DNA from: Lewinellaceae bacterium
Lineage (GTDB): Bacteria; Bacteroidota; Bacteroidia; Chitinophagales; Saprospiraceae
Length of the DNA: 33,306 nucleotides
Direction of reading: 5' to 3'
NCBI GenBank assembly: GCA_029976695.1
Contig: JARQTN010000050.1
Location: 43,702-77,007, forward strand
Position numbers and translations under genes: made by a program. Numbering within the stretch: the stretch's first letter is position 1; every line of letters starts with the position of its first letter. Below are positions 1,515 through 33,306 of this stretch, in pieces. The notes beneath the pieces are model-generated. The model searched no databases. It had not been told where the DNA came from and saw only the letters and a program-made list of their open reading frames with translations.

Positions 1515-1561
1515 GTTGATCTTTTTTGAAGTGAATTCAGGAATCCTGTTTTCCATGCATT

Positions 1562-4729: not shown

Positions 4730-4801
4730 TTTGATTGGTTTGATCTTCAGGTAAAGAACTTGAATCAGAGGCGCATTTGCCGGCTAATTATTGTCACAAA
4801 A

Positions 4802-4821
4802 GGTTTGAAAATTGTCAAACC
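4802..4821 (-). promoter_or_regulatory. 20-bp inverted repeat upstream of susC (terminator or operator)
   Basis: The arms GGTTTGA and TCAAACC are perfect 7-base complements separated by 6 bases. The element lies 38 bases past the stop of the regulator gene and about 72 bases before the susC start. On the minus strand the hairpin is followed by TTTTG, so it could be a short intrinsic terminator for the regulator. Equally, it could be an operator for the AraC-type output domain. I saw no good TAnnTTTG promoter box in this 130-base gap. Function is inference. Confidence 0.45.
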
Positions 4822-4859
4822 CCGTTAATCATAGGCTAGATGGCTTCCAGAAGCTGCAG

Positions 4860-8783: not shown

Positions 8784-8800
8784 GCTGTCAGACTGCATTT

Positions 8801-13800: not shown

Positions 13801-16800
13801 TTGCTGGATACTGCCATTTGCTCCGGGGGGGCGATTACCATTGGCGGCATCGTATTTGACGTATCAAATACAAATGGCATGGTGACATTCGTGGCAGGCG
13901 GTGGCTGCGATTCTATTGTCGAGGTTCAATTAAGTTTCCTGCCGGTTCCTGAAGGGTATGAAACATACCATGGTTGCAGTGGTGATGGGTATTCCGTTTT
14001 TGTTGGGGGCACCGTATATGATGAAACCAATCCAACAGGTACCGAATTGATCGTCAGCCCGGAAGGGTGTGACTCGATTGTCGTGGTTGATCTTGTTTTC
14101 GGTGACAACATCGTGACCGAGATTGATTCCCTGATGTGTCCCGGTCAATCTGTTGTGGTGAACGGGATCATTTATGATGAGAACAACCAGACTGGAACAG
14201 AAGTGATTCCGGGTGCTGGCTGTGATTCCGTCGTCATCGTCAATCTGTTTTTTACAATGCAGGATACTTCATATGTGGAATATGAGGGCTGTTTTGGCGA
14301 CGGGTACAGTGTCGTTGTCAATGGGACGGCATATGACGAGACAAACCCTGAAGGAACTGAGCTGCTGTCTTCTCAGACTGGCTGTGATTCTGTTGTGATC
14401 GTCACGCTGTCTTTTATAATGCAGGATACTTCGTATGTGGGGTATGAAGGCTGCACTGGAGATGGATACAGTGTCATTGTCAATGGTACTGCGTATGACG
14501 AGGCGAACCCTGCAGGAACTGAATTGATGTCTTCACAGTCTGGCTGTGATTCTATCGTGGTCATTGATCTTGTGTTCCATGCTTCTTCAGAGGAGGTAAT
14601 CAACTACCAGGGCTGTGTCGGGGACAATTACAGTCTCGAGGTCAATGGTACGGTCTATGATGCTTTAAATCCTTCGGGAACAGAAATCATGTCAAACCAG
14701 TTTGGTTGTGACTCAGTGATCCATGTTTCCCTTTCCTTTGGCGACACAATTGTACACCATATTTCATACCTGGGATGTATTGGCGATGGCTATTCGGTAG
14801 ATGTTGGCGGCCAGGTGTTTGATGAGACCAACCCGGTGGGCGAAGTGTTCTTTCCCTCAAATACAGGGTGCGATTCCATCGTGGTCGTATCCCTTTTGTA
14901 CCAGGCTCCTGTTGTTACTGTAGTCAACGAGGAACTTTGCCAGGGGGACTCCATGACAATCAACGGAACTGTCTATCATGCGGCCAATCCGCAAGGCACA
15001 GAGGTGATGCAAGGCGCCATGTGTGACTCCATTGTCGAGGTTACCCTGACTTTTATTGAAGCCTTCACAGATACCATTTCCTATACAGGCTGCATGGGTG
15101 ACGGATATGAAGTAGTCGTGGATACTATCGTTTTTTCTGAATCAAACCCGACAGGACAAGTCGTACTGGTATCTTCCTCTGGTTGTGACTCCACAGTTGT
15201 GGTTGACCTTTCCTTTGAGAACTGCTGCCAGCCGGAGGAGCAGGTCATCCAGGCGACGATTTGTGCGGGCGGATCATATGACTTCAATGGGATGATGCTG
15301 GACCAGCCCGGTGCATACGCTGATTCCCTGCTGAATACAGCCGGGTGCGACAGTGTTGTGATCCTGGAACTCCAGGTCGCAGACTTCCCGGAAGTTGAAG
15401 CAAGCGTTGACGGGATGATCACCTGTACGTCTGCCGAAGTCATGCTTACAGGGATAACGACCGCGGGAGCCCAGGTGCACTGGGAAGGACCGGGTATCGA
15501 TCCGGCACAAGGATCAACCCTCACCCTCATGACGTCAAGTCCCGGATGGCACTACCTGTACGCGGTAAGCGGGCACGGCTGCCAGTCCCTGGACTCAGTC
15601 CTTGTTGAGCAGCATGAGGATGTTCCTGTGATCTCCGTGTGTGATGATTTGGCACTGGATTGTGCGCATGATTCAGTCGTACTCAATGTCGAGGTAAGTG
15701 GTGCCCATTGCATGATAGAGTGGATCGGTCCTGGAATGCCGGGTGGAATGGGCTACGATACCAATGTGGTCGTCAATACCCCGGGCGTATATACAGTGAT
15801 GGCCCTGGATACCATAAGTGAATGTGCATCTCCTGTGGATACGGTCCTTGTATATGATCACACAAGGGAGGTAGAAGCTGAAATAGACGGGGATGAAATA
15901 CTGACCTGCCAGCGGGCTTCAGCGATGCTGAACTGCTATTCCTCGACAACGGGTGCACACATCGAGTACACCTGGATGAATTGGGAAGGGAAATTGCTTG
16001 GCCATCAAATGGAATTGGAGGTGAATGAACCGGGAAAGTACTTTCTGCATGTGATGGACAAGGAAAGTATGTGTGCAGATATGGATTCAACGATTGTGGC
16101 AGATAACAAGAATTTCCCTGTAGCTGCGATCGGCGATGTGGATCATCTGGATTGCAGAAATGAATCAGTGATTGTCGAAGCGATGCAGGCGCCAGGGAAT
16201 GAAAATGTCGTGTATACCTGGCAAGGTCCTGAGAATGCATTTCTGTCAAGTCGGTTTGAACCAGCCGTTGAAGTCATGAAAAGCGGAATGTACTACCTGA
16301 TCGTAAAGGACACACTGAGTTTCTGCTTCGAAGAGGATTCTGTGTTCGTTGAGGAGTTCAGGGAAATTCCGGTGATCGATGCGGGGCAGGACCAGCAATT
16401 GACTTGTCTCCAGGTTTTGGCCGATCTCGGATCTGCAATAAATCCACAATCATCTGACTATTTGTATGCCTGGTCAGGTCCCGGAGTTCCTGCAGGGGCG
16501 GCAAACCAATATGGTATCCAGGTTGACCAGGAGGGGATGTACCATCTCTCTGTGACGAACCTCCTCAACGGTTGTGAGGCAGATGATTCCGTATATGTGG
16601 CCATTTCCGGGCCTATTGAGAGTGCTCTTGTTGAGTTCCAGGATCTGACCTGTTCAGGTACAAATGACGGGATGATCATCATCGAGGAGGTTTTTGGCGG
16701 AACCGCCCCGTTTACTTACCAGTTAAACGGTCAGCCTGCTTCTCCTGCCGGTGTGTACACGGACCTGGCACCGGGAAATTATCATGTACAGATCACGGAT

Positions 16801-17391
16801 CAGAATGGTTGTACCTGGGAATCTGAGATTCCGATTGAAGACGGGATCGAGTTGAGTATTGATGTTGGGCCAGACCTGATCCTGGATTATGGAGACACAT
16901 ACCAGCTTGCGCCGGAATTGTTACTCTCAAACGGGTATATCGATTCCATTGTGTGGTCGCCCCAGGAATTCCTTTCCTGTTCAAATTGCCTGAACCCGGT
17001 ACTTACCGGCCTGGGAAATCAGGCGGTTAGTGTCACGGTATACACTGAATTCGGGTGTTCTGCTTCGGACGCGCTCAATCTCCAGATCGAAGAGAGCTAT
17101 GAAGTCTATATCCCGAATGTGTTTACGCCAAACGGTGATGGAAAGAACGATTACTTCACCCTGTTTGGCGATGACAATGTGAAGGTGATCAATAAATTGG
17201 AAATCTTCAACAGGTGGGGGGACAAGGTTTTTTCCAGGAGCAATCTTCATCCAGGAGATACGGATATGGGCTGGGATGGCAGATTTAACGGAGAAATCGT
17301 CAACTCTTCAGTTTACGTGTATGTCTTTGAAGTGGAATTGCATAATGGCCTGAAAGAGACCTATAAAGGAGATGTGACCCTGTTAAGATAG
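10894..17391 (+). CDS. Giant T9SS-exported repeat protein with SprB repeats, 54-aa two-cysteine repeats and type B sorting domain
   Basis: The 2165-residue protein is probably a surface adhesin or matrix protein. The ATG at 10894 follows AGGGGG by four bases, and the N-terminus looks like a signal peptide (WGICIVWIAALSAAG). Four SprB-type repeats lie at about 90-430 (pattern SGGT.PYTF.W, DLPAGTY.VTVTDANGCT). About twenty repeats of ~54 residues fill 434-1495. Five or so Ig/PKD-like units follow at about 1497-1910 (pattern LTC, YTWQGPE, CEADDSV), then another SprB-like repeat at about 1912-1985. The last ~97 residues (YIPNVFTPNGDGKNDYF, IFNRWGDKVF, GWDGRFNGE, YVYVFEVE) are the gliding-motility-associated C-terminal domain, a type B T9SS sorting signal. 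Such proteins are exported across the outer membrane and anchored or released. SprB-like repeats occur in the gliding adhesin SprB, but a motility role here is inference. No enzyme domain is seen. It is flanked by its own promoter candidate and a weak terminator. Confidence 0.9.
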   Translation: MGIHKVLLRLYRFQNWGICIVWIAALSAAGSIDPETPLEFEASSLPVWNDPDGKLESRLPLASGHEGIYALKPGADHPENAGELTVLNCANPPVIDNISGDGLSCANNMDGDVLIHVTGGTPFPGPYPYQFDWDWDATPQNDDFSCGCPSGEYEDLSGLGAGIYTVTVTDANGCTATASAPVTLPNSPDITGNAFDVQCFGEADGTIEIDVTGGTPNPFSGNYDFDWSNDGTGDHDDPEDLSGIGPGTYTVIVTDFLGCTAEATFTINEPTELNSSVTAEAVQCAGESTGTIDLTVSGGTTPYTFDWNHDGTGDNDDPQNLQDLPAGTYAVTVTDANGCTTVASVILNEPAHAVEASVTGFDAQCFGEASGNVDLTVSGGTGSYTFSWSNGAGTEDLQNVPAGSYTVVVTDANGCTATANFTVNEPPELTGQYTEQVCAGGTVMLNGTVYDETNPSGTEVFTSAGGCDSTVTITLTFDPPATGEELYTGCSGDAYSVVVNGSVYDESNPSGTELITTAEGCDSIVTVNLTFQSASTGEETYAGCTGDGYSVVVNGTTYHESNPSGTETLTNANGCDSVVTVTLTFNQPTTSEITNDACTGDGYSVTVNGTIYNESNPSGVEVISNANGCDSTITIDLFFGTPSSSDVTYTGCQGDGYSVVVNGTTYDESNPSGVEVTTNADGCDSTITVALNFLSPITEEINYSGCFGDGYSVVVNGTTYDETNPTGQETLTGGNGCDSIIIINLVFSDQSAGEESYAGCTGDGYSVVVNGTTYNEGNPSGQETLVANSGCDSVVTINLAFAQPSSSTLEYTGCSGDGYTVTVNGIVYSEANPDGTEVIQNAAGCDSTITIDLVFNEPTSEEILYEGCAGDGYAITVNGTVYNEGNPSGTEVMPNAAGCDSTITINLVFQPVNTTEINYAGCVGDGYSINVNGTIYDETNTTGTEFLTTPSGCDSIVEINLSFASEIYTLLDTAICSGGAITIGGIVFDVSNTNGMVTFVAGGGCDSIVEVQLSFLPVPEGYETYHGCSGDGYSVFVGGTVYDETNPTGTELIVSPEGCDSIVVVDLVFGDNIVTEIDSLMCPGQSVVVNGIIYDENNQTGTEVIPGAGCDSVVIVNLFFTMQDTSYVEYEGCFGDGYSVVVNGTAYDETNPEGTELLSSQTGCDSVVIVTLSFIMQDTSYVGYEGCTGDGYSVIVNGTAYDEANPAGTELMSSQSGCDSIVVIDLVFHASSEEVINYQGCVGDNYSLEVNGTVYDALNPSGTEIMSNQFGCDSVIHVSLSFGDTIVHHISYLGCIGDGYSVDVGGQVFDETNPVGEVFFPSNTGCDSIVVVSLLYQAPVVTVVNEELCQGDSMTINGTVYHAANPQGTEVMQGAMCDSIVEVTLTFIEAFTDTISYTGCMGDGYEVVVDTIVFSESNPTGQVVLVSSSGCDSTVVVDLSFENCCQPEEQVIQATICAGGSYDFNGMMLDQPGAYADSLLNTAGCDSVVILELQVADFPEVEASVDGMITCTSAEVMLTGITTAGAQVHWEGPGIDPAQGSTLTLMTSSPGWHYLYAVSGHGCQSLDSVLVEQHEDVPVISVCDDLALDCAHDSVVLNVEVSGAHCMIEWIGPGMPGGMGYDTNVVVNTPGVYTVMALDTISECASPVDTVLVYDHTREVEAEIDGDEILTCQRASAMLNCYSSTTGAHIEYTWMNWEGKLLGHQMELEVNEPGKYFLHVMDKESMCADMDSTIVADNKNFPVAAIGDVDHLDCRNESVIVEAMQAPGNENVVYTWQGPENAFLSSRFEPAVEVMKSGMYYLIVKDTLSFCFEEDSVFVEEFREIPVIDAGQDQQLTCLQVLADLGSAINPQSSDYLYAWSGPGVPAGAANQYGIQVDQEGMYHLSVTNLLNGCEADDSVYVAISGPIESALVEFQDLTCSGTNDGMIIIEEVFGGTAPFTYQLNGQPASPAGVYTDLAPGNYHVQITDQNGCTWESEIPIEDGIELSIDVGPDLILDYGDTYQLAPELLLSNGYIDSIVWSPQEFLSCSNCLNPVLTGLGNQAVSVTVYTEFGCSASDALNLQIEESYEVYIPNVFTPNGDGKNDYFTLFGDDNVKVINKLEIFNRWGDKVFSRSNLHPGDTDMGWDGRFNGEIVNSSVYVYVFEVELHNGLKETYKGDVTLLR
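12193..15378 (+). repeat. About 20 tandem 162-bp repeats coding for a 54-aa two-cysteine unit
   Basis: The protein-level unit is approximately YxGCxGDGYSVVVNGT.YDE.NPSGTE, then about eight variable residues, then GCDS.V..L.F and a variable linker of about eight. Typical units have cysteines at positions 4 and 35 of the unit. I count 20 units. The first, eleventh, thirteenth, eighteenth and twentieth are divergent, with the opening reduced to forms like ICSGG or LCQGDS. The codons differ widely between most units, so the array is old and conserved at protein level, except for units 14 and 15, which are close in DNA too. The GCDS-type repeat is common in secreted Bacteroidota proteins. Confidence 0.93.
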
Positions 17392-17726: not shown

Positions 17727-20700
17727 ATGGGACAATTTAACAAATTTATAATTCCATTTGCTTGTGCTTTCTTTGCTTTTGCACAATCTGTTTATTCGGA
17801 AGGCTCCAGGCAGCTGTCTCCAACAGCAAACGATATTGTGCTCCTGCACACAAATGCCTCAGGATTTGCGAATTTCGCAGCCTATGACGGAGATCCGTTA
17901 TCTCGACTGAATATTCATATTGAGGATTTCAGTACAGAGACCGTGTATATAGGTCTTTCGGCAGAGGCAGACAACAATGGCAACCTGACACCACCAGGCA
18001 CTTTCTGGTTCCGCATCAAGGATCCGGACGGCGTGGTCGTGCACGGGCCTTTCCAGGTCACGACCTCAAATGACAATGCAGAAACCTGGGCGCTTGCCAC
18101 TGCCGGACCTGATGTCATCGACCCGGTAAACGGATACCAGACCGCAGGTGTGAACTATGCGGTGTTTGATCCCTCGACGGTCGGCAAGAATGGTGATTAC
18201 TATATTGAGTTCAGTGAATCCCAGAATGCCCCGCAGAACAATATTATCAATATCCTCTGGTACGATTTTACAGTAGTGGCCGGCGGCACAGAACAACCCG
18301 GGCGTCTCTGGTCCAACAGGTGGGCCCTGAGGACTCCCCAGGAAACTGGCGCAGCTCCAGAATGTGAGTGGGACCGGCCGTTCAACGGACAGTTCTATTC
18401 ATACACGATCGATGGATTTGTTTCACTTGTAGATTTCAGTGGATCCGGATTCCAGGGACTCTCCTTTACCGTGGCCTTTGGCGAATTTGGACCCGGGAAT
18501 ACCGGTAATGTGATCGAGGATCGAAAGTCCGTCAACATAGGTGATTCAACGGCGACCGCAGCCGATCATCAGGTATTCCTCAATGATCCTGATCCATCGG
18601 TTTATCCGTCTTCACCGGATATTTGCGGTACCGCGGAATATTTCGGGGCTTCCTGTGAGGGTGATGATATTTGTATTTCCGTCGGGATCACCCAGGAAGG
18701 GCAGGTCGAGGTATTGCTCGATTTCTTTGGCGATAATGGCATATTCGATCCGAATACGACGGATGTCCTGCTCGCTGAGGTGTTTTTCGCTGCGGATACA
18801 GCCTGTATCCCGTGGGATGGCCTGAAAGGGGACGGCAGCCCATTGGATTTTAACGAACAGGTTGAAGCTGTGATCCGCTATTCACAAGGAATTCAGCACT
18901 ATGCTGCCTATGATGTCGAATTCCTCCAGAACGGGTTTTGTGTGCAAACCATCAGGCCAACCTGTTCCGGCATGTCCAATCTGCTCTATTGGGATGATAG
19001 TAATATTACGGATTTTGTATCCACGCCCACAATTGATGAAAGCGATCCCGGGACAGGCCAACCGCTCGTCCAACTCAGCGGATGCACATGCGGTGCAGGT
19101 GGTTGTCGCACCTGGAACAATTTCCAGACTGGAACGAACCCGAATGATTGTGATGGACCACCGGCAGGGTATGGGGATGAAAGGACATTGAATACCTGGT
19201 GGTTTGCAGCTTCAGTGACAGTTGGGCCGGTGAATATCCCCGTATTGCAGGTCATGGCCACTGGCGACACCCTGATCTGTTCAGGTGACAGTACGGCGCT
19301 TTCCGTTGTGACCAGCCTGATGGATCCGGGATACACCTATTCCTGGTCAGGCCCCGGCGGTTTTACTTCTGATATGCAGAATCCCGGATTTGCCTCAGAA
19401 CCAGGGGACTACATTGTGACAGTAATGGATCCTGCAACCGGGTGTATGGCGACAGATACAATTACAATTGAAGTGGCCCCGGAAATCATGACAACGCTTG
19501 ATTTTACCTGTGTGATGGCCAATCAGCCCAATGCGGATATCGACCTGTCAGTATCGGGGGGAATCGCACCATACAGCTTTTTGTGGTCCAATGGTGCCAT
19601 GACTGAAGACCTGACAAACGTGCCTGCCGGTTTCTATTCCGTTACGGTGACAGATGACCTGGGATGTGAAGCCACTGATACAATCACGGTGCAGGGGTGC
19701 TGTATGCTCGAATTTCTCTGTCCACCACCAGTGACAGATATTTTTGCCTGTATCACGGATATACCTGCTCAGGATACGGCACAGGTGTTTGTGACCGATT
19801 TTTGTGAACCGCTGATGATAGAGATCGTGGATGCGAATAATGGAGGAACCGGTTGCGAAGGCGACACCCTTGTGGTAACCAGGACATATTTCATCACGGA
19901 TGGTGCCGGTAATTCTGGGACATGCACACAGACGATTGATATCGTTGATGACCAGCCCCCGATCCCGACAGGCGGGTCTTGTCCCCAGGATACATCGATC
20001 CTTTGCGGGCAGCCGGCCGGTACGGATTTACTGGGATTGCCCTCCTATGTCGATATCTGCACGCCCGGAGTTGGGATATCCGTAACCTTCAGGGATGACA
20101 GTACCGGATTTGATGGTACCTGCACAAACATGATCCTTGGCCAGATCCAGCGTACGTTCTTTGGTGAGGACCTGTGTGGAAATATTGACAGCACCTGTGT
20201 CCAGACGATCTCGGTAATCGACACCGTACCTCCCATCTTTACATTGCCTCCTGATGCAATCATCGATTGCACCAGTGACTCACTGACATCGACAACGGGA
20301 ATGGTCACCGGAGTAGCTGACAATTGTACGGCCACCACTGTCGATTTCACGGACCTGGTTGTGCCAGGTGAATGTCCTGTTATCGATACGATTTATCGCA
20401 CCTGGACTGTGACCGATGCATGCGGCAATGTGGCAACAGGTGTCCAGGTGATCTCCAGGACAGATACACAACCTCCATCCTTTATTGTGCCGGGTGATAT
20501 TACAATCAATTGCACACAGGATTCCCTTCCTGCGATTACTGGTGATGTAACCGGAATCCTGGATGACTGTTCTTCCACTACTGTGGAATTTTCGGATCTC
20601 GTGAGTGCCGGGACGTGCCCGGTAATTGATGTGATCACAAGAACATGGACCGTCTCTGATGCCTGTGGAAATGCGACCACTGATGTGCAGATTATTACCA

Positions 20701-23700
20701 GGATTGACAATACGGATCCAACGTTCACTGTGCCTGCCGATATTGTCATTGCATGCGATGAGATGCCGACAACGGGTTTGACCGGAGATGTGACTGATGC
20801 TTCCGACCTGTGCTCTTCAACAAGCGTCGGTTTTACAGATATCACCGTACCAGGCGAATGCCCTGCGACGGATACGATATTCAGAACCTGGACAGTGCTC
20901 GATGCCTGTGACAATTCTGCAACTGGCGTACAGGTGATCACCCGCGTGGATACAGTCGCGCCGATAGTCCTGCCCGGCACTTGCCCCGAGAATTTTACGA
21001 TTGCTTGCAATGAGATGCCTGGTGAACTGGGTGAGCCCGGATTCAGCGATAATTGCACTTTGGTGACCCTGTCCATCGATGTGGATTCTATCGGTTTTGT
21101 GCCTCCCAGTTCCGAGGGTGTGATTACACGGACATTTTACCTGACTGATGCTTGCGGTAATGTGGATAGTAGTTGCGTGCAGGTGATTACCGTGGTGGAT
21201 AACCTGCCTCCCATGGTCACCTGCCCTCCGGATATCGAAGTCCAGTGCGGAGATGATACCGGCCCGAATGCAACAGGAAATGCCCAATTGACCGATGACT
21301 GTGGCGATCCGTTGAACCTCGAACTGACATTTACCGATGTGACAACCGGATTTGGAGGTGGTTGCGGGGCAGGCACAATTATCCGGACGTTTACAGGCAC
21401 GGATCCTGACGGCAACGCTGCAACCTGCCAGCAGAATATCACGGTAACCGATGATATCGTGCCGGTTTTTGACGTTCCGCCATCGATCACAGTTGATTGT
21501 GACATTGATTTTGATGACCTTTCCCTCACCGGGGAAATCTCGAACGTCTCGGATTGCAGTGCGATCGCAGATACTTCTTACTCAGATATGTCAGGCATGA
21601 TCTCCTGCACGGGTGTTGGGGAAATCACCCGCACGTGGTCTGTAACCGATGCCTGCGGAAATGTAGGAACTGCGGTCCAGATGATCTATATACAGGACAC
21701 TGTGCCGCCCAATCTGATCCCGCCCCCGGATGTGGTGATCAGCTGCGAACAAGATCCGCTCGATACGATGGTCACTGGTTCAATAGTTGTCGTCAGTGAT
21801 GCATGCAGCATGAATTTCATGCTCTCATATGAAGATGATAATTCAGGTTTAACTGGTTGTAACGGGACAGGCGTCATCATCAGAAGATGGAATGCCAGCG
21901 ACGAATGTGGAAACATGGCCGTCATGGAACAGACGATCACTGTTGTTGATAATACCCCCCCTGTCCCGCTTTGTAATGATATTACGCTGAATTTCTATAC
22001 CGGAGAAATCCTCACGATTTCCCCGGATGATGTCGATAACGGCAGTTCGGATGCCTGTGGCGAGGTGAGCCTCAGTTTATCTCAATCCGTATTCGATTGC
22101 AGGGACTTCCGGAACAACGCTGTGCAGACAGCCCAGTTGATCGTATCTGATGATTGCGGGAACAATGCTGCCTGTGAATTTACAGTTACGGGTGTTGGCG
22201 GCAGCGGGATCATTGCTTCCTGCCCGACCACGGATATTTTCGTGCATCTTGGATCAGGTGAGTGTGAAGCTGCTGTGAGCTATCCGATCGGGGGAGAACC
22301 GGAATGTGGCAATTTTGAGATTGTCGTCGAGCAGATCGATGATTCAGGCTATACATCAGGGGATATCTTCCCGATTGGTGATTACGTCCAGGAATACATT
22401 ATATACAATGTGCCAGACGCATCAGCACCTGCAGATCTTGTGCCGGATACCGTCAGCTGTGCATTCAATATCCACGTCATCGAAAATATACAGACAACCA
22501 ATAACCTGAACTGCAATGGGAATGTAAATATCTCCTTTGACCAAAACTGTGAACTGGTCATCAATCCGGACATGATCCTGGAAGGAGGGAACTACAGTTG
22601 TTTTGATGATTTTTTCATCGAAATCGAGGACGTTGCCGAAGGGTTTGGCGAGGTGATGATTACGATTGATGATGTGGTGCTGGGTCAATATTATACAGTT
22701 ACCATTACAGATACGAAAACGGGTATATCCTGCTGGAACAAAGTCCGTTTTGAGTACAAATTCCCGCCTTTCACGGAATGTGGGGATCGGACAATCCTCT
22801 GTACAACCCCGTTGCATCCCGTGTTTACAATGCCGGATGGGGAAATGCTGCCTTACGCACCATCAGCCGGCAGCGATTGCGTAGAGATCATGTATGACTG
22901 GGAGGATGAGGTATTTGAAGGATTGTGCGGTGTGGATTCCGTTTATCGTTCCTGGACGATTACGGATGAAGTCGGAAATGCGGCTACCTGTGTGCAGCGG
23001 ATTTTCGTGCAGCCGGCAACCTTTGATTCACTTGAATTCCCGGCGACGTACTTCGGGCCCTGTGACGGATCGACGGATCCTTCTGTGACGGGGTACCCGT
23101 TGATCAACGGGGAGTCCATTGTCAACAATCCGCAGTGCAATATCATGGCTGTCTACGACGATGTAGAATTCGAGGAGTGTGGTGCCAGCACAAAGGTTGT
23201 CCGGAAGTGGCGTGTGCTGAACTGGTGTACGCAAGAAACAATTGAAGGAAACCAGGTCATTAAACTGTTGGATGAAGAAGGTCCTGAAGTGGTATGTCCT
23301 GCGGATATCGAAGTTGGGACAGATTTCTGGTTTTGTCATGCCAATGTGCCGATCCCGCCTGCCCAGGCTTTCGATGCCTGCGGGAGCGACCCGATCACAT
23401 TTGAACTTGCATCAAGTGCAGGTGAAGTGACACAGGTGGGCGGCCAGTATGTCGTCACGGAAATGCCCCTGGGTACCAATCAGGTGACCTGGACTGCCAT
23501 CGACGATTGTGGAAATACATCGAGTTGCACAATTCAGGTGACGGTAAAAGACGATGTTCCGCCTGTTGTCAACTGTGATGAGCATACGGTTGTCAGCCTG
23601 ACCAATGACCGTCCATTTGGAATTACCCTCGTGGATGCTTCAGTGCTTGACGACGGTAGCTACGACAACTGCAGTGAAATCTCATTCCGGGCCAGGCGGA

Positions 23701-26700
23701 TGACAAGCTGCATCAATATTGACTGGACATCCAATGGTGCAGGCATTGATGATATTCCGAATGGCATTGTCAATTCCAGGGACAGGGGTACAGTGCACCG
23801 GCCAAAGATACCCTTTGCATGCTGCGATGTGGCCGCAGGACCTATCATGGTCGAGTTGGAAGTGACAGACGAAGTGGGAAATATCAATTATTGCATGGTT
23901 GAGGTGACCGTGCAGGACAAGATCGCCCCGTACATGGAATGTCCGCCTGACATTGTGGTCAGTTGCGACTTCTGGTTTGACGATCATGTGACGACAAACC
24001 AGTTCATCGACCTTTCCGAGGATCCGCTTGGAAATGTGTTCGGGACGATGCTGGATGCATTTGAAAATACCGAGGAGGACCGCAGGGTGATCACGATCAA
24101 TGACCCGGGCAGGCCCACAAGCCCCTCGGATCCGGATTACCTGGCACAGCCTTATGACTGGGGTCGCGACGGATGGGCCTTTGATAATTGCGATATCGAG
24201 CTGGATGTCTTTGTGACCATCGTGGAAGACTGCAGTGGCGAAGATCCTGCGATACCGGATATTCCATCCTGGCTGATCTCTGCTGACAGGGCAGATGACG
24301 AGGTGAAGTATATCAAGAGGAGGTTCAGGGCCACGGATCTCAGTCCGCAGGAGAATGCCTCTACCTGCGAGCAGAATATCTGGGTGGTTGACTTCGATCC
24401 GTTCTACATCAGTGACAATACATGCACAAACACGGATCCGAGAGACGGAGTGATCTGGCCATGCGACCTTGAATACACGACATGCCCTGATTCCATTGAC
24501 TATACAGAGCCAGTCATTTTTGATGATAATTGCAGCCTCATCGGAATCACATATGATGACAGCAGGTTTGATTTTGTGGACAGCGCATGCTACAAGATCC
24601 TGCGTGAATGGACCATCATTGACTGGTGCCAGTACAATGCGGCAACAGGGGCCGGTCTATGGAAATACACCCAGGTGATCAAAGTCATCGACAGCGATGG
24701 ACCAGAAGTGATCAATTGCCCGGAAGGGCCTGTGACACTATGTGCATCTGACCCGGGTGTGAGCCTACCGGATAACAACCAGGTATTCCTCAGTGAGGAA
24801 GATCCGGATCATACTTCATGCAGTGTGCATATCGACGTGAGCCTCGATGTGCAGGAACTTTGCAGTGATTATGTGATCTATGATGTGAAGGTCTATCCGT
24901 TTAACGGCATCGAATTCCTCCAGCTCGTAGACAAGACAGAAGTTGCGCTTGATGAAGCAGGAGTTGCCATATTGAACCTGAACACCAGGAATGCCGCAAT
25001 CCCTGCTATCAGGCAGAATGGCCTACCATATAACAGTCCATTCTGCGGTGATTACCACAGGGTATTGTGGAGTATTGAGGATGGATGTGGAAACCTGAGC
25101 ACATGTGAGTACCTGCTCAGGCTGGAAGACTGCAAGCAACCCAGCCCGGTATGCATCAACGGATTGAGTACGGTTGTGATGCCTCAAGGAGGAAGCGTGA
25201 CGATCTGGGCGAAGGAATACGATGCCAGTTCAATTGATGACTGTACCCCTGCGGAAGACCTGCTGTTCAGTTTCAGCGGGGACTTCCACCAGCCGAGCAT
25301 GGAATACAATTGTGAAAATGTGCCCGCTTTCGGAGCTGAACTTGAAGTGCAGATTTGGGTTGCGGATGCAGGTGTGGATGCAGATTGTGACGGAACAATC
25401 GACTGGGATGAGAAGAACAGGGATTTCTGCACGACCACCATTGTGGTAACGGACAATGAAGGTGTTTGCGGCTCGGGAACGGCCGTGATAGAGGGGGATG
25501 TCCTGACGCATGATGTACAAGAGCCGGTCGCACAAACGACGGTCAGCCTGCAGCATCCAAGCCAGGCATTCCCAAGTGTGATCACTGCCGAGGACGGGAA
25601 GTATGCATTCACCGGTGTGCCGGCAAATGGCCCGTATACGATTACGCCGTTGAGAAACGATGATCACAAGAACGGAGTAAGTACGCTTGACCTGGTCAGG
25701 ATCCAGAAACACTTGTTAGGTGTGGAACCATTTACCTCGCCTTACCAGTATATCGCAGCTGATGCGAATAATTCGCAGTCAGTCAGTGTCATCGACCTGA
25801 TCGAATTGAGGAAGCTGATCCTCCAGATGACGACAGAACTGCCGAATAACACCAGCTGGAGGTTTGCGGCAAATGGACAGGAATTCGCTGACCTTTCGAA
25901 TCCCTGGCCATTTGAGGAATCGATTACACTCGAAACAGTCGAAGCTGGCCAGGATTATGTCGATGAAAACTTCATGGCGATCAAGGTTGGTGACCTGAAC
26001 AATACCGTGGTGGCAAATGCAACACAAGTGGTTGTACGGAATCCGCAAAGTGAAGTGGCAGTCGAGGTGATTTCGCCTGAAGCGCTCATCCAGGGTGAGA
26101 TCTATGAGCTTGAGGTGATCGTGCCTGCAGAGTTGCTTGGCTTCCAGTGGACAATGGATTTACGTGATCTGGACTTCATCGGGATCGAAAGTGACCAGGT
26201 CGGGTCAGAGGATTATGCACTGCATGATCGGATGCTGGCGATGAGTTTTGTGCGGGCAGAAAGGGCCGCCTACGCGGATGGCGGGCCCGAGCCGGTGAAA
26301 TTCAGGCTGATCGTCCAGGCAAGCACATCCGGGCAGGCTGCGCAGATGATCGGTTTGAGTGATGAGATCACACCTGTCGAAGGTTACCGGAACGGTAGTG
26401 GTTCCGACGGGGCAATCGAGGTTGTTGAACTCGCACTTGACTTCGGCAGCCAGCCCGGATCGGCTGAATATGCATTGTTCCAAAACCAGCCAAACCCGTT
26501 TGTGGACCAGACGATCATTGGATTCACACTTCCCGGGGATATGGAAGCGACAATAACTGTCTTTGATGCCGCAGGCAAGGTCCTCAGGGTAATTGAGGGG
26601 GATTATGCGAGAGGTTACAACAAGGTTGCCATTTCCAGTGGTGACCTGCCGGCTGGAGGCGTTGCGTATTACAACCTGAAAGCCGGGGCATTTTCGGCAA

Positions 26701-26726
26701 CCAGGAAAATGATCCTGATCAAATAA
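17727..26726 (+). CDS. Giant T9SS-exported multi-domain protein with HYR-like repeats, dockerin-like pair and type A sorting domain
   Basis: The 2999-residue protein starts with a signal peptide (MGQFNKFIIPFACAFFAFA). Residues ~25-510 form a region I cannot assign. An Ig-like unit (~510-585) and a SprB-like repeat (~590-656, DLTNVPAGFYSVTVTD) follow. About ten HYR-like units of ~80 residues span ~659-1489, each ending in patterns like RTWTVTDACGN and VDNTPP. Residues ~1600-1690 and ~1769-2590 form a cysteine-rich module shared with the next gene. A carboxypeptidase-regulatory-like fold (~2585-2643) leads to two EF-hand-like loops at ~2644-2699 (KNGVSTLDLVRIQKHLLG; ADANNSQSVSVIDLIELRK), which resemble a dockerin. 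Residues ~2758-2907 may be cohesin-like. The last 86 residues (FQNQPNPFVDQTIIGF, ITVFDAAGKVL, GYNKVAISSGDLPAG, KMILIK) are a type A T9SS sorting domain. Likely a surface or matrix scaffold; no catalytic motif was seen. A strong terminator follows. Confidence 0.9.
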   Translation: MGQFNKFIIPFACAFFAFAQSVYSEGSRQLSPTANDIVLLHTNASGFANFAAYDGDPLSRLNIHIEDFSTETVYIGLSAEADNNGNLTPPGTFWFRIKDPDGVVVHGPFQVTTSNDNAETWALATAGPDVIDPVNGYQTAGVNYAVFDPSTVGKNGDYYIEFSESQNAPQNNIINILWYDFTVVAGGTEQPGRLWSNRWALRTPQETGAAPECEWDRPFNGQFYSYTIDGFVSLVDFSGSGFQGLSFTVAFGEFGPGNTGNVIEDRKSVNIGDSTATAADHQVFLNDPDPSVYPSSPDICGTAEYFGASCEGDDICISVGITQEGQVEVLLDFFGDNGIFDPNTTDVLLAEVFFAADTACIPWDGLKGDGSPLDFNEQVEAVIRYSQGIQHYAAYDVEFLQNGFCVQTIRPTCSGMSNLLYWDDSNITDFVSTPTIDESDPGTGQPLVQLSGCTCGAGGCRTWNNFQTGTNPNDCDGPPAGYGDERTLNTWWFAASVTVGPVNIPVLQVMATGDTLICSGDSTALSVVTSLMDPGYTYSWSGPGGFTSDMQNPGFASEPGDYIVTVMDPATGCMATDTITIEVAPEIMTTLDFTCVMANQPNADIDLSVSGGIAPYSFLWSNGAMTEDLTNVPAGFYSVTVTDDLGCEATDTITVQGCCMLEFLCPPPVTDIFACITDIPAQDTAQVFVTDFCEPLMIEIVDANNGGTGCEGDTLVVTRTYFITDGAGNSGTCTQTIDIVDDQPPIPTGGSCPQDTSILCGQPAGTDLLGLPSYVDICTPGVGISVTFRDDSTGFDGTCTNMILGQIQRTFFGEDLCGNIDSTCVQTISVIDTVPPIFTLPPDAIIDCTSDSLTSTTGMVTGVADNCTATTVDFTDLVVPGECPVIDTIYRTWTVTDACGNVATGVQVISRTDTQPPSFIVPGDITINCTQDSLPAITGDVTGILDDCSSTTVEFSDLVSAGTCPVIDVITRTWTVSDACGNATTDVQIITRIDNTDPTFTVPADIVIACDEMPTTGLTGDVTDASDLCSSTSVGFTDITVPGECPATDTIFRTWTVLDACDNSATGVQVITRVDTVAPIVLPGTCPENFTIACNEMPGELGEPGFSDNCTLVTLSIDVDSIGFVPPSSEGVITRTFYLTDACGNVDSSCVQVITVVDNLPPMVTCPPDIEVQCGDDTGPNATGNAQLTDDCGDPLNLELTFTDVTTGFGGGCGAGTIIRTFTGTDPDGNAATCQQNITVTDDIVPVFDVPPSITVDCDIDFDDLSLTGEISNVSDCSAIADTSYSDMSGMISCTGVGEITRTWSVTDACGNVGTAVQMIYIQDTVPPNLIPPPDVVISCEQDPLDTMVTGSIVVVSDACSMNFMLSYEDDNSGLTGCNGTGVIIRRWNASDECGNMAVMEQTITVVDNTPPVPLCNDITLNFYTGEILTISPDDVDNGSSDACGEVSLSLSQSVFDCRDFRNNAVQTAQLIVSDDCGNNAACEFTVTGVGGSGIIASCPTTDIFVHLGSGECEAAVSYPIGGEPECGNFEIVVEQIDDSGYTSGDIFPIGDYVQEYIIYNVPDASAPADLVPDTVSCAFNIHVIENIQTTNNLNCNGNVNISFDQNCELVINPDMILEGGNYSCFDDFFIEIEDVAEGFGEVMITIDDVVLGQYYTVTITDTKTGISCWNKVRFEYKFPPFTECGDRTILCTTPLHPVFTMPDGEMLPYAPSAGSDCVEIMYDWEDEVFEGLCGVDSVYRSWTITDEVGNAATCVQRIFVQPATFDSLEFPATYFGPCDGSTDPSVTGYPLINGESIVNNPQCNIMAVYDDVEFEECGASTKVVRKWRVLNWCTQETIEGNQVIKLLDEEGPEVVCPADIEVGTDFWFCHANVPIPPAQAFDACGSDPITFELASSAGEVTQVGGQYVVTEMPLGTNQVTWTAIDDCGNTSSCTIQVTVKDDVPPVVNCDEHTVVSLTNDRPFGITLVDASVLDDGSYDNCSEISFRARRMTSCINIDWTSNGAGIDDIPNGIVNSRDRGTVHRPKIPFACCDVAAGPIMVELEVTDEVGNINYCMVEVTVQDKIAPYMECPPDIVVSCDFWFDDHVTTNQFIDLSEDPLGNVFGTMLDAFENTEEDRRVITINDPGRPTSPSDPDYLAQPYDWGRDGWAFDNCDIELDVFVTIVEDCSGEDPAIPDIPSWLISADRADDEVKYIKRRFRATDLSPQENASTCEQNIWVVDFDPFYISDNTCTNTDPRDGVIWPCDLEYTTCPDSIDYTEPVIFDDNCSLIGITYDDSRFDFVDSACYKILREWTIIDWCQYNAATGAGLWKYTQVIKVIDSDGPEVINCPEGPVTLCASDPGVSLPDNNQVFLSEEDPDHTSCSVHIDVSLDVQELCSDYVIYDVKVYPFNGIEFLQLVDKTEVALDEAGVAILNLNTRNAAIPAIRQNGLPYNSPFCGDYHRVLWSIEDGCGNLSTCEYLLRLEDCKQPSPVCINGLSTVVMPQGGSVTIWAKEYDASSIDDCTPAEDLLFSFSGDFHQPSMEYNCENVPAFGAELEVQIWVADAGVDADCDGTIDWDEKNRDFCTTTIVVTDNEGVCGSGTAVIEGDVLTHDVQEPVAQTTVSLQHPSQAFPSVITAEDGKYAFTGVPANGPYTITPLRNDDHKNGVSTLDLVRIQKHLLGVEPFTSPYQYIAADANNSQSVSVIDLIELRKLILQMTTELPNNTSWRFAANGQEFADLSNPWPFEESITLETVEAGQDYVDENFMAIKVGDLNNTVVANATQVVVRNPQSEVAVEVISPEALIQGEIYELEVIVPAELLGFQWTMDLRDLDFIGIESDQVGSEDYALHDRMLAMSFVRAERAAYADGGPEPVKFRLIVQASTSGQAAQMIGLSDEITPVEGYRNGSGSDGAIEVVELALDFGSQPGSAEYALFQNQPNPFVDQTIIGFTLPGDMEATITVFDAAGKVLRVIEGDYARGYNKVAISSGDLPAGGVAYYNLKAGAFSATRKMILIK
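19701..22194 (+). repeat. Array of about ten HYR-like coding repeats (~240 bp each)
   Basis: Consecutive units share the order: proline-rich start (for example FTVPADIVIACDE), GDVTG, a central DLC or DNC, a GECP turn, RTWTVTDACGN, then an aspartate-proline linker. Units 3, 4 and 5 (about 20233-20960) are closest to one another, and the others are more divergent and vary in length. HYR-like domains are Ig-fold modules common in extracellular adhesive proteins. Confidence 0.8.
23031..26108 (+). repeat. Copy 1 of a 3-kb coding segment shared with the next gene
   Basis: It aligns with 30231-33306 at an offset of 7194-7200 bases. The encoded ~1000 residues share long identical runs, for example ACCDVAAGPIMVELEVTD, IKRRFRATDLSPQEN, VTLCASDPGVSLP and KQPSPVCINGLSTVVMPQGG. 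In the 60 bases at 25021-25080 against 32221-32280 I count 49 identities, with most differences at third codon positions. Strong similarity ends near 26042, just after QVVVRN. Confidence 0.93.
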
Positions 26727-30000: not shown

Positions 30001-33000
30001 TTACCTGCATTGAGCTGGATGGAATCCTGAGCGGGAATGTGCCGCTTGACCTCTTGCCGGTTGCCACCGATGCCTGTGGTCCATCCACCCTGAATGTCCT
30101 GAGTGTTGAAGCTCCGGCAGATATCTGCATGACAGGGAATGCAAATGTAACCTGGGTTGCGACAGATGAATCAGGGAATACCTCCACATGTACACAAAGT
30201 TTCATTCTCGTACCCCTCACCCTTGATGACGTGGAGTTTCCGGAGACCTACTTTGGCACCTGCAACGGGAGCACGAGTCCGCTAGTGACCGGATTCCCGA
30301 CTGTCAATGGGTATGAAATCGTGGAAGAATTATGCAATCTGTTTACAACGTATTGGGATAGCCCGATCAATGATTGCGGAGGCGGGTCAAAAGTGGTCAG
30401 GCACTGGACAATCGTAGACTGGTGCCAGCAGGAGGTTGCGGAAGGTACCCAGGTGATCAAACTCAACGATACTGAAGGACCTGAAATGACCTGCCCCGAG
30501 GACTTTGAGGTGGGCACAGACTTCTGGTTTTGTTATGCCAATGTCAGTGTGCCGAAGCCTGTTGTCTTTGATGCCTGTGGTTCTGATTATACCCTTTCAC
30601 TGTCCTCCTCGGCTGGAGTTGTTGCAACAGTTGGAAACAACTTTGTGATCAATGAGCTGCCTCTGGGTGAAAACCAGGTGACTTGGCATGCCACGGATGC
30701 CTGTGGAAATGAATCAAGCTGTACATTTATTATTGAAGTGAAAGATGATGTGCCACCTGTCCCCAATTGCGATGAACATACCATTGTGAGCCTGACATCG
30801 GACAGGGAGCAGGGATTGACCCTTGTGGATGCAAGTGTGTTTGATGACGGAAGCTACGACAATTGCTCCGAGGTGACCTTCAGGGCAAGAAGGATGACTT
30901 CCTGTATTGATTTTGACTGGACATCGAATGGTGCCGGGATTGATGACATTCCAAACGGCATCGTCAATTCAAGGGACCGGGGGACCGTACACAGGCCCAA
31001 GGTGCCTTTTGCATGCTGCGATGTGGCGGCCGGGCCGATCATGGTTGAGCTCGAGGTAACCGATGCTGTTGGCAATATCAACTACTGTATGGTCGAAGTA
31101 GAGGTCCAGGACAAGCTCGCACCATTCCTTGAGTGTCCCCCGGACATCGTGGTCAGTTGTGATTTCTGGTTTGACAGCCACGTGACAGTGGGGCAGTTCA
31201 TCAGTCTTGATGAAGATCCGCTGGTCCATGTATTTGGTACCGTGATCGACGCGTTTGAAGTAAATGGCAACGAGGCTGCCAGGCAGCAGATCGTGATCAA
31301 TGACCCGGGAAGACCCTCGAGTGCTTCCGATCCGGATTATCTGCCACAACCTTATACATGGGGTGTTGATGGCTGGGCGGATGATAATTGTGATGTAGAC
31401 CTGGATGTGTTCATTACAATCCTTGATGATTGCAGTGGCGACGATCCTGCGATCCCTGCGATCCCTGGCAACCTGATTTCAGAAAACAGGGCGGATGATG
31501 AAGTAAGGTACATCAAGCGGAGGTTCCGGGCCACGGATCTCAGCCCGCAGGAAAATTCGACGACCTGTGAGCAGGAGATCTGGGTGGTCGATTTCGATCC
31601 GTTCTTCATCACGGATGAGACCTGCAACAACAGCAATCCGAATGACGGCGTCATCTGGCCGTGTGACATCGAATTGCATGAGTGCGGACCGGAATTGCCT
31701 TATGAGGAACCCGTCGTCTTTGACGACAATTGCAGCATGATTGCCATTTTCCATGAAGATACGCGCTTTGATTTTGCAGATGATGCATGTTACAAGATCC
31801 TGAGAGAATGGACGGTCCTGGACTGGTGCCAGTACGAGCCCAACCTCGGGACAGGAATCTGGACGTACACCCAGGTCATCAAAGTCCTGGATACGGATGG
31901 GCCCGAGGTGCTCAATTGTCCCGAGGGGCCGGTTACACTTTGTGCCTCCGATCCCGGCGTTTCCCTGCCGGAGAATAACCAGGTATTCCTGGGAGAGGAA
32001 GATCCGGCAAGGTCATTCTGCAGCGTCCACCTGGATGTCAGCCTGGATATCCGGGAATTGTGCACGGACTATGTGACCTATGATGTCAAGGTTTACCCCT
32101 TCGACGGCATAGAGTTCCTGCAGCTTGTAGAAAAGACAACTGTAGAAATGGATTCCCTTGGATATGCAACGTTGTCACTGAATACGCGGAATGCAGCCAT
32201 TCCTGCGATTCGGCAGAATGGCTTGCCGTACAATAGCCCATACTGCGGCGATTATCACAGGGTATTGTGGAGTATGGAAGATGGCTGCGGAAATATCAGC
32301 ACCTGCGAGTACCTGTTGCGTCTGGAAGACTGCAAGCAGCCCAGCCCGGTGTGCATCAACGGGCTGAGTACAGTCGTCATGCCTCAGGGTGGCTCCGTGA
32401 CCATTTGGGCAAAGGAATATGATGCGAGTTCGATTGATGATTGTACCTCTTCGGAAAACCTGGCATTCAGTTTCTCGGCTGATTTCGAGCAATCCAGTAT
32501 GGAATACAATTGTGATAACGTCCCGGCTTTCGGGGCAGAGCTCCAGGTTGAGATCTGGGTTGCAGACGAAGGTGTGGATCACGATTGCGACGGCACGATC
32601 GAATGGTCTGAGCGGAATAAGGATTTCTGCACGACCACCATCGTAGTGACGGATAATGAAGGGGTCTGCGGGTCAGGTACAGCGGTCATTGCCGGCGATG
32701 TGCTGACTCATGATGCACTCGAGCCTGTTGGTGAAGCAAGCATCACTATGACCCATCCGACACAGGTGTTTCCGAGTGTGCTTACTTCCAGCGATGGCAG
32801 GTATGCGTTTTCCAGCATCCCGCCAGAGGGCCCGTATACGATCACGCCGGAGCGCAACGACTTCCATAAAAATGGTGTCAGTACGCTCGATCTTGTGCGC
32901 ATCCAGAAACACTTGCTGGGTGTGGATCCCTTCACCTCTCCATATGAGTATATCGCGGCTGATGCAAACAATAGTGAAAGCGTCAGTGCTCTTGATCTCG

Positions 33001-33306
33001 TGGAAGTCCGCAAACTGATCCTGGGTACTTACGATGATTTCCCGAACAACCAGAGCTGGCGTTTCCTTGCCAGTGACCAGGTATTCGAGGATCAATCTGC
33101 ACCATGGCCGTTCAGAGAGTATATTGTTAAGGACGAACTGGAAGCAGGTGCGAGCTATCTTGATGAAGATTTCATGGCCATCAAAATCGGTGACCTGAAC
33201 AATACGGTTGTAGCGAATGCCACGCAGGTTGTGGTACGTAACGCAAACGGGCTGTTCAACTTCGTGACGCAAGATCGCGATGTGGTAGCAGGCGAGACTG
33301 TTGAAG
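27051..33306 (+). CDS. Giant secreted metzincin metalloprotease with HYR-like, PPC-like and dockerin-like modules (3' end missing)
   Basis: I read this frame from ATG 27051 to the window edge, 2085 codons, and it stayed in phase at seven checkpoints. The signal peptide is MKKHLLISLVVLIAVPLFG. A propeptide-like region runs to ~200, then an M12-like metzincin domain at ~202-410: zinc motif HEIGHLWDGTH at 350-360 and a Met-turn TTIMHP with Met376. The zinc histidines and catalytic glutamate are present, but the usual glycine at motif position 8 is Asp357. Next come a SprB-like unit (~412-498), two HYR-like units with DNGSSDACG motifs, another HYR unit, and a PPC-like beta-sandwich (~847-985). 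From ~1060 the module shared with the upstream gene begins, and the dockerin-like pair lies at ~1936-1993. By analogy with that gene, a T9SS sorting domain should follow within about 300 residues beyond the window. It probably acts outside the cell on protein substrates that cannot be named. Confidence 0.93.
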   Translation, partial: MKKHLLISLVVLIAVPLFGQRVEFKAKKIDLKRSELDMSFRDYSVYNFESGAVFEYVQNKRNVSFDLVFDERERMPWSLDIEPHDLRGPNFREVAITKDGWEVLPRRQNITYRGKVDHARGGEVRMTIAEDFFMGMVTIDKYVFYFEPLNGLVADAPKDHYVLYDTRDVIADGTSHCGAAQVEKYAPDEETVQELQQNRNSRVCLEVELGIASDSTMFDRYGTVQNINDRIISITNMTEALYIPFELNYLITDMFVATNNDPWSGVTAPNGWSLEAFDILNDFSSWAPGNLNTHDIGQFWTTRDIEGCGGSGPGLIGCAQVIGGVCGASRYNVCEDFTNDFAGLTVLSAHEIGHLWDGTHGASDPSANPANPTTIMHPFITATATTWSTGNTTRFNNHIASRTCLDGCGTLCDISIDLVAISAESCPGFNDGALSVSASSSNSPITYMLTGPTSGENTTGLFSGLPPGDYEIIVLDDPFFDTCTDTVNVTVPAAVDNADPTCATQDIDVFLDANGDGSITATDIDDGSSDACGAVTLAASPTMFNCGDVGQNTVTLTVTDPNGNSATCDATVTVIDNIPPDCMAQNITVMLDENGEATITQDALDNGSSDACGVAMVEVDQDLFTCEDIPSVTVNQTVTDVNGNASVCSATVTVEDNLAPIIDCPLDIIITLGGGECRTIVDWPTPDVEDNCEVASIVQTGGPPSGSWFEKETTTTIEYTATDGVGNTSVCTFDIVINPFPDPLLTLTCNPGLNISLDDACSFLVSADIFLEGGPYMCYEDYLVYIEGVPGEVNNTTIGLEPGTHMVTVTDPNTGISCWSNVLFEDKIPPVIECPCPADGQGVSSFTGTLDASSPTWTRPFGDPPNCAPSGVGVDVPYQTFDFYVDMLGANAFEVVTFTAPSNDSYLAIYEAPFNPDEPCTNLIDQDDDGGQGFLSQVSAELQAGVQYVLVVTTFNNSGDDFGDFEVQISGNATVYAGAPICFITCIELDGILSGNVPLDLLPVATDACGPSTLNVLSVEAPADICMTGNANVTWVATDESGNTSTCTQSFILVPLTLDDVEFPETYFGTCNGSTSPLVTGFPTVNGYEIVEELCNLFTTYWDSPINDCGGGSKVVRHWTIVDWCQQEVAEGTQVIKLNDTEGPEMTCPEDFEVGTDFWFCYANVSVPKPVVFDACGSDYTLSLSSSAGVVATVGNNFVINELPLGENQVTWHATDACGNESSCTFIIEVKDDVPPVPNCDEHTIVSLTSDREQGLTLVDASVFDDGSYDNCSEVTFRARRMTSCIDFDWTSNGAGIDDIPNGIVNSRDRGTVHRPKVPFACCDVAAGPIMVELEVTDAVGNINYCMVEVEVQDKLAPFLECPPDIVVSCDFWFDSHVTVGQFISLDEDPLVHVFGTVIDAFEVNGNEAARQQIVINDPGRPSSASDPDYLPQPYTWGVDGWADDNCDVDLDVFITILDDCSGDDPAIPAIPGNLISENRADDEVRYIKRRFRATDLSPQENSTTCEQEIWVVDFDPFFITDETCNNSNPNDGVIWPCDIELHECGPELPYEEPVVFDDNCSMIAIFHEDTRFDFADDACYKILREWTVLDWCQYEPNLGTGIWTYTQVIKVLDTDGPEVLNCPEGPVTLCASDPGVSLPENNQVFLGEEDPARSFCSVHLDVSLDIRELCTDYVTYDVKVYPFDGIEFLQLVEKTTVEMDSLGYATLSLNTRNAAIPAIRQNGLPYNSPYCGDYHRVLWSMEDGCGNISTCEYLLRLEDCKQPSPVCINGLSTVVMPQGGSVTIWAKEYDASSIDDCTSSENLAFSFSADFEQSSMEYNCDNVPAFGAELQVEIWVADEGVDHDCDGTIEWSERNKDFCTTTIVVTDNEGVCGSGTAVIAGDVLTHDALEPVGEASITMTHPTQVFPSVLTSSDGRYAFSSIPPEGPYTITPERNDFHKNGVSTLDLVRIQKHLLGVDPFTSPYEYIAADANNSESVSALDLVEVRKLILGTYDDFPNNQSWRFLASDQVFEDQSAPWPFREYIVKDELEAGASYLDEDFMAIKIGDLNNTVVANATQVVVRNANGLFNFVTQDRDVVAGETVE
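30231..33306 (+). repeat. Copy 2 of the 3-kb coding segment shared with the previous gene (cut by window end)
   Basis: This is the direct-orientation counterpart of 23031-26108. It includes the SLEFPATYFG/DVEFPETYFG start, the NSRDRGTVHRPK block, the carboxypeptidase-regulatory-like unit and the dockerin-like pair. Similarity weakens after QVVVRN near 33242. A further related block lies just upstream of both copies (about 22505-22790 and 29290-29550, sharing LEGG.Y.C and TGISCW). Confidence 0.93.

Follow-up and report, generated by a model that had tools for sequence, protein, structure and literature searches.

The 2999-aa protein encoded in a 33,306-nucleotide stretch of DNA from a Lewinellaceae bacterium (the whole analysed stretch is termed the window) ends in a genuine dockerin followed by a genuine domain of the cohesin fold, placed ahead of a type IX secretion sorting domain (Table 1). 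This identification of the two modules is supported by sequence comparison and structure prediction, and in what follows we show their homology, predicted fold and order, the abundance of the tail family to which they belong, and the linkage of that family to multi-cohesin genes. We propose tentatively, with a probability of roughly 0.4, that the tail dockerin may dock in trans on the cohesins of separate multi-cohesin scaffolds. If the modules bind, giant proteins exported by the type IX system would be organised by plug-and-socket scaffolds, and cellulosome-type modules in this unexpected group are a hint of a cell-surface assembly kit.

Table 1. Features of the window that bear on the dockerin-cohesin tail (nucleotide positions are those of the window).
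Feature	Position (nt)	Residues (aa)	Strand	Basis or remark
2165-aa upstream neighbour with SprB repeats and CHU_C	10894..17391		+	
2999-aa protein	17727..26726		+	ORF list, Pfam; one open frame
Carboxypeptidase-regulatory-like domain	25488..25646	2588-2640	+	PF13620
Dockerin, two EF-hand-like loops	25656..25823	2644-2699	+	PF00404, alignment columns, predicted helices
Extension, K-x-G-D-x-N motif at its end	25824..26006	2700-2760	+	alignment; high pLDDT
Cohesin-fold domain	26046..26447	2774-2907	+	block profile, predicted structure
Type IX secretion type A sorting domain	26466..26723	2914-2999	+	TIGR04183
Next giant ORF, open at contig end	27051-33305		+	reprolysin-like (M12B) metallopeptidase domain, HYR repeats, dockerin tail
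Dockerin and extension of ORF 27051-33305	32838..33227	1930-2059	+	alignment
Cohesin block start of ORF 27051-33305, ~26 residues	33228..33305		+	contig end cuts block

The body of the 2999-aa protein contains seven HYR_4C stretches and one SprB repeat according to Pfam, and its start, read by eye, resembles a signal peptide. The sequence-only reading that preceded this work had described two EF-hand-like loops with a carboxypeptidase-regulatory-like fold in front of them, and both were recovered: the loops are KNGVSTLDLVRIQKHLLG (aa 2648-2665, positions 25668-25721) and ADANNSQSVSVIDLIELRK (aa 2678-2696, positions 25758-25814), and PF13620 matches a 246-aa fragment with 30.0 bits (E 6.8e-7), just below its cut-off of 32.3. 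The tails of the window and of 80 relatives were aligned, and Dockerin_1 (PF00404) is found at E<=0.01 in 79 of these 81 tails. In the window its match (aa 2651-2699) scores 17.0 bits in the whole protein and 20.0 bits in fragments, both below the cut-off of 22.9, and 23.7 bits, above the cut-off, in a six-frame search. Loop 2 is canonical and retains the ligand pattern D, N, S/D, S/T, D, and loop 1 is atypical in that position 5, by what we take to be the usual dockerin numbering, is occupied by K in the window's copy and by L in 59 of the 81 tails. At the end of the extension, ~65 residues past loop 2, the stretch K-x-G-D-x-N-x-S/T (25983-26006, aa 2753-2760) resembles the opening half of a calcium loop of the dockerin type. 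As judged from the sequence, this motif and the atypical loop 1 may possibly represent a split or permuted EF hand. No dockerin chain was among the matches listed in the structure searches, where other domains filled the lists. The sorting domain TIGR04183 is matched in the 2999-aa protein at E 1.8e-4 (21.4 bits, cut-off 23) and at E<=0.01 in 80 of the 81 tails, among which Por_Secre_tail (74) and CarboxypepD_reg (42) are also found at that threshold.

The beta-rich block behind the dockerin had been called cohesin-like by the sequence-only reading, which considered this call its weak part. A block does lie there, but ~75 residues past the dockerin and not the ~60 that had been given, and the cohesin call itself now has behind it a profile of the block, Pfam matches in related tails and the predicted fold. 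In the Pfam search that had been suggested, dockerin is matched in 79 of the 81 tails and Cohesin (PF00963) at E<=0.01 in 25 of them; a 227-residue piece around the block of the window, searched alone, matches nothing up to E 10. In the same genome, however, a paralogue with the same tail (C49) has a block above the Pfam Cohesin cut-off (E 5.2e-11), to which the window block is related at E 6.5e-4 and 30% identity. When a profile of the 81 blocks was compared with solved structures, 17 of the 24 distinct sequences matched up to E 1 were cohesins; the best was 3l8q (whole-sequence E 2.3e-7, best single stretch 0.28), and the Archaeoglobus cohesin 2xdh was matched at 6e-4. The non-cohesin matches were three designed immunoglobulin-like proteins, of which two took the second and third ranks, and four unrelated proteins that closed the list.

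Structure prediction gave a 431-residue model of the whole tail with a mean pLDDT of 90.7 and a pTM of 0.82, and a 275-residue model of the dockerin and cohesin with a mean pLDDT of 87.3 and a pTM of 0.78, the other four of the five 275-residue models having pLDDT values of 80.1 to 73.6. A structure search, named beforehand as a test able to overturn the cohesin call, placed the block inside the cohesin fold: after structural re-ranking of the 275-residue model, rows 1-30 are all cohesins (Z 9.6-7.9), headed by 4ums (Z 9.6, 3.5 A, 121 aligned) and 2ccl_A (Z 9.5, 3.2 A, 116 aligned), and only from row 31 downward (Z 7.9-7.5) do other beta sandwiches appear (antigen I/II, YcnI, pilins, adhesin). 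Foldseek with the same model likewise gives cohesins in its first five rows, the best being 2w1n (E 7.5e-5). With the 431-residue model, the top Foldseek rows are multi-domain beta proteins of other kinds (TM-scores ~0.2), and after re-ranking many rows fall on the sorting domain (344-431), while the six confined to ~206-339 are all cohesins. A general immunoglobulin-like or fibronectin-like domain was considered and rejected, as the shorter (275-residue) model places cohesins first, and artefact or chance was rejected on the Pfam counts of the tails, the block profile and the structural ranking.

For the wider family, seven tails of the window's genome, that of the window included, were aligned to give the query for named genomes. 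At least 566 of 597 pattern matches encode a relative, and the best 80 of 566 were kept; A4 (80 rows) excludes the near-duplicate tail L026 and A5 holds 35 of the 81 rows, picked by hand. The relatives were selected by whole-tail similarity, which inflates the constancy of residues and spacing across the 81 tails, namely the closing Asp residues of loops 1 and 2 standing 35 apart in all 81, the K, G and D of the K-x-G-D-x-N motif in all 81 and its N in 80, the 63-67 residues that separate loop 2 and the GDxN motif, the cohesin residues Gln 2807 and Tyr 2887 in all 81, and the 50-62 residues (mean 52.0, s.d. 2.2) from the GDxN Asp to the cohesin Gln. The named relatives are mostly metagenome-assembled genomes of Saprospiraceae or Bacteroidota, and the culturable Lewinella cohaerens and Phaeodactylibacter xiamenensis are also among the carriers of tail loci. 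Within the window's family the block profile matches 91 of 100 sampled genomes (own genome included), with at least 40 matches in one genome, and Pfam Cohesin is found at E<=1e-6 in 89 of the 100. In a sample of the phylum, 6 of 296 genomes match at E<=1e-10, of which five (own included) belong to the same family and the sixth, a weak match (5.3e-11), to another family of the class. Its presence in 91 of 100 genomes of the family and its near-confinement to that family thus make the tail a common lineage trait. Records named Alphaproteobacteria (L051), Cyclobacteriaceae (L065) and Thermoanaerobaculia (L072) also hold the tail, and these may be mis-binned contigs. Beyond this tail, the window's genome encodes a second class of proteins (L010, contig C205; L015, contig C57) with more classical dockerins that carry a long insert, behind which a domain resembling cohesin and then a sorting domain can be read by eye. 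Two further proteins (L017, contig C159, thioredoxin-like by eye; L007, contig C174) carry their dockerin close to the C-terminus, and no sorting domain follows it.

The surroundings in the window agree with the earlier statement that adjacent giant proteins share the tail, as the next ORF has the dockerin, the extension and the start of the block, the right edge of the window being the end of the 77,007-base contig. No dockerin or cohesin match was obtained in the upstream neighbour (ORF 10894-17391), and a scaffold gene is absent from the window. The minus strand of positions 3-9877 encodes SusD, a TonB-dependent receptor with a CarbopepD_reg domain (SusC-like), a hybrid two-component regulator and a sulfatase-modifying-factor-like protein.

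Cohesins also occur apart from the tails. A parse of nine genomes gave 109 dockerin matches and 112 merged cohesin places, 67 of which directly follow a dockerin and 45 of which are free and spread over 24 frames. A dockerin lies within 10 kb of 12 of these 24 frames (in three cases in the same frame), the nearest is more than 15 kb away in nine, and none is on the contig in three. Several of these frames encode multi-cohesin proteins, which combine multiple cohesins at the N-terminus with SprB repeats and a CHU_C signal for type IX secretion, and which are encoded beside PorP/SprF. The largest array, ten Pfam cohesin stretches (E 4.9e-85) in one protein with SprB repeats and CHU_C, is in G031:C17 (L140, 1111-8655), and PorP/SprF follows it. 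On contig C61 of the window's own genome, a dockerin-tail gene, a multi-cohesin gene and PorP/SprF follow one another on one strand, the multi-cohesin protein having 1014 aa, three Pfam cohesin stretches (E 4.7e-22), SprB repeats and CHU_C, so a multi-cohesin scaffold of the kind that characterises cellulosomes is present in this genome. The C61 tail is divergent: its dockerin is recognised by the family profile (E 2.1e-20) and scores 19.7 bits with Dockerin_1, below the cut-off, no Pfam dockerin or cohesin is found in it at E<=0.001, and a cohesin-like stretch can be made out in it only by eye. Results are inconsistent for a multi-cohesin ORF of G025 (L141), where a six-frame search gives cohesin stretches above the cut-off, found also by our own profile, but Cohesin is missing from the hmmscan list at E<=0.001. 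The multi-cohesin stretch of the cultured Phaeodactylibacter xiamenensis (L052, 8148-13071) is split over two frames, through either a genuine break or misassembly of the repeats.

The 12 discovery regions had been chosen for dockerin-less cohesins, and linkage to dockerin tails was therefore tested by later sets only. At least 14 multi-cohesin frames, with at least two listed rows each, lie outside the nine parsed genomes, and 14 were taken; the controls were 40 hand-picked PorP/SprF loci from those 14 genomes and the window's genome (G000). A dockerin ORF is present in 8 of the 14 multi-cohesin regions (L151, L155, L156, L158-L161, L163) versus 1 of the 40 control regions (L199; Fisher p 2.3e-5), a comparison in which tails near some of the 14 regions had been noticed beforehand, region lengths were unequal between test and control (11.8-20 kb), the cohesin profiles included 19 array cohesins from the discovery regions, and 7 of the 40 controls held free cohesins. 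When the regions are regrouped by any free cohesin, the counts are 9 of 21 versus 0 of 33 (p 5.5e-5). In two more test regions (L152, L154) the cohesin frame is cut by the contig edge and resembles a tail end, and in the other four (L153, L157, L162, L164) no tail was found within the fetched stretch, L153 being at a contig end. PorP/SprF is present in 13 of the 14 test regions, and 12 encode a small single-cohesin protein of ~260 aa (the L153 copy, open at the contig end, has 327 aa). In L151 and L158 both Cohesin and a type IX sorting domain exceed their cut-offs in this small protein; in L155 Cohesin alone is listed for it, and in L052 its sorting domain scores 26.8, just below the cut-off of 27. 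The controls L179 (weak), L187, L193 and L200-L202 have cohesin arrays by PorP/SprF and no dockerin-tail gene in the fetched region; such dockerin-less arrays are perhaps a second class of scaffold.

Linkage is also seen from the side of the tails. A multi-cohesin ORF lies downstream on the same strand in at least 8 of the 80 tail-selected loci, P. xiamenensis (L052) included, which is a lower bound because sequence past the tail is limited (median 5997 bases; at least 2000 in 66 of 80), and in those eight loci the next cohesin ORF begins 173-1000 nt past the tail. One of the eight, L088, covers the DNA of discovery region L142, and there is no overlap between the 80 loci and the 14 test regions. 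The divergent C61 tail, this shared locus and an overcount of lone dockerins considered below weaken single items and leave the comparison of 14 with 40 regions unaffected.

The gene evidence therefore points first to separate multi-cohesin proteins, often encoded beside the tails, as partners of the tail dockerin. In the mechanism proposed here, the dockerin would bind in a calcium-dependent manner to cohesins on separate surface proteins, the scaffold being a protein with several N-terminal cohesins, SprB repeats, a CHU_C signal and a PorP/SprF partner gene, often with the ~260-aa single-cohesin protein encoded just upstream. Giant adhesin-like and protease-like proteins would thereby be mounted on a common scaffold, as enzymes are in a cellulosome, and the tail's own cohesin might accept another dockerin or shield its own. 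More speculatively still, Saprospiraceae-type Bacteroidota may have a cellulosome-type surface assembly built through type IX secretion, in which the many dockerin-cohesin giants of a genome would dock on SprB-like scaffolds that bear as many as 10 cohesins and are fixed by PorP/SprF and the small single-cohesin anchor. Such an assembly could branch, because each tail offers a cohesin too.

The main rival to docking in trans is a closed clamp in cis, in which the dockerin binds the cohesin of its own chain, so that the two form a stiff stalk, stabilised by calcium, that connects the repeats to the sorting domain and has no part in assembly. The regular dockerin-to-cohesin spacing, the cohesin directly behind 67 of the 109 dockerins and the confident models (pTM 0.82 for the tail and 0.78 for dockerin and cohesin, the latter against the ~0.6 that we estimate for a free hinge) fit this reading, but the lower pLDDT of four of the five models means that the two-domain arrangement is not firm. 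The clamp also does not account for the separate multi-cohesin genes linked to tail genes, nor for the 42 of 109 dockerins without a detected adjacent cohesin, a number that is overstated because at least two are due to the contig end (ORF 27051) or to divergence (C61), and on balance we consider it somewhat unlikely.

Descent without function, in which the folds are kept and the modules serve only as spacers that do not bind each other, is improbable. Cohesin-like folds are found in other roles, the window block is without a Pfam Cohesin match, and loop 1 lacks the usual side-chain ligand at position 5, but the ligands of loop 2 and the cohesin Gln and Tyr are invariant or nearly so in the 81 tails, and the linkage of dockerin and cohesin genes is kept across genera. 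The presence of both modules within one tail could also suggest, in line with the network proposed by the sequence-only reading, that giant proteins link directly to one another, each dockerin engaging a neighbour's cohesin to give chains or sheets, and more than one dockerin-tail ORF does occur in 15 of the 80 loci, with two side by side in the window. Duplication alone, however, can yield clustered paralogues, and the separate scaffolds are an alternative partner; we consider such a tail-to-tail network highly improbable. Docking in trans on separate scaffolds hence remains the reading that we prefer.

The dockerin and the cohesin are each a known family. In the open-licence literature we found no description of a dockerin and a cohesin on one type IX chain, in many copies within a genome and with linked SprB-type scaffolds, and nothing joining cohesin domain, dockerin and Saprospiraceae. 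The 2009 review of Peer et al. may have noted cohesins in Bacteroidota before, and we do not claim a first report of this arrangement. Among the closest folds to the block are non-cellulosomal cohesins of Clostridium perfringens (2w1n, 2jh2, 2vo8) and Archaeoglobus fulgidus (2xdh), proteins that are not known to be exported by type IX secretion. For Candidatus Stygibacter (Cloacimonadota), a scaffoldin-like protein has been predicted that has tandem cohesins and, at its C-terminus, a domain that would attach it to the surface of the organism itself, and dockerins there are on enzymes, such as peptidases, and on one glycine-rich protein (PMC8542988). That organism belongs to another phylum, and the part of its description consulted mentions no dockerin-cohesin tail (PMC8542988). 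The system described here resembles the clostridial cellulosome (type I) in its dockerin family, its cohesin fold and the presence of separate multi-cohesin proteins in the same genomes. It differs in that no glycoside hydrolase domain, the mark of the plant cell wall enzymes that bear dockerins in cellulosomes, and no cellulose-binding Pfam domain was found in the three giant ORFs of the window, and in having a dockerin and a cohesin on one chain, type IX export and SprB repeats in the scaffold. With the SprB-type adhesins that are accompanied by PorP/SprF, the scaffolds examined share the SprB repeats, CHU_C where complete, and the PorP/SprF neighbour, but unlike those adhesins they bear N-terminal cohesins.
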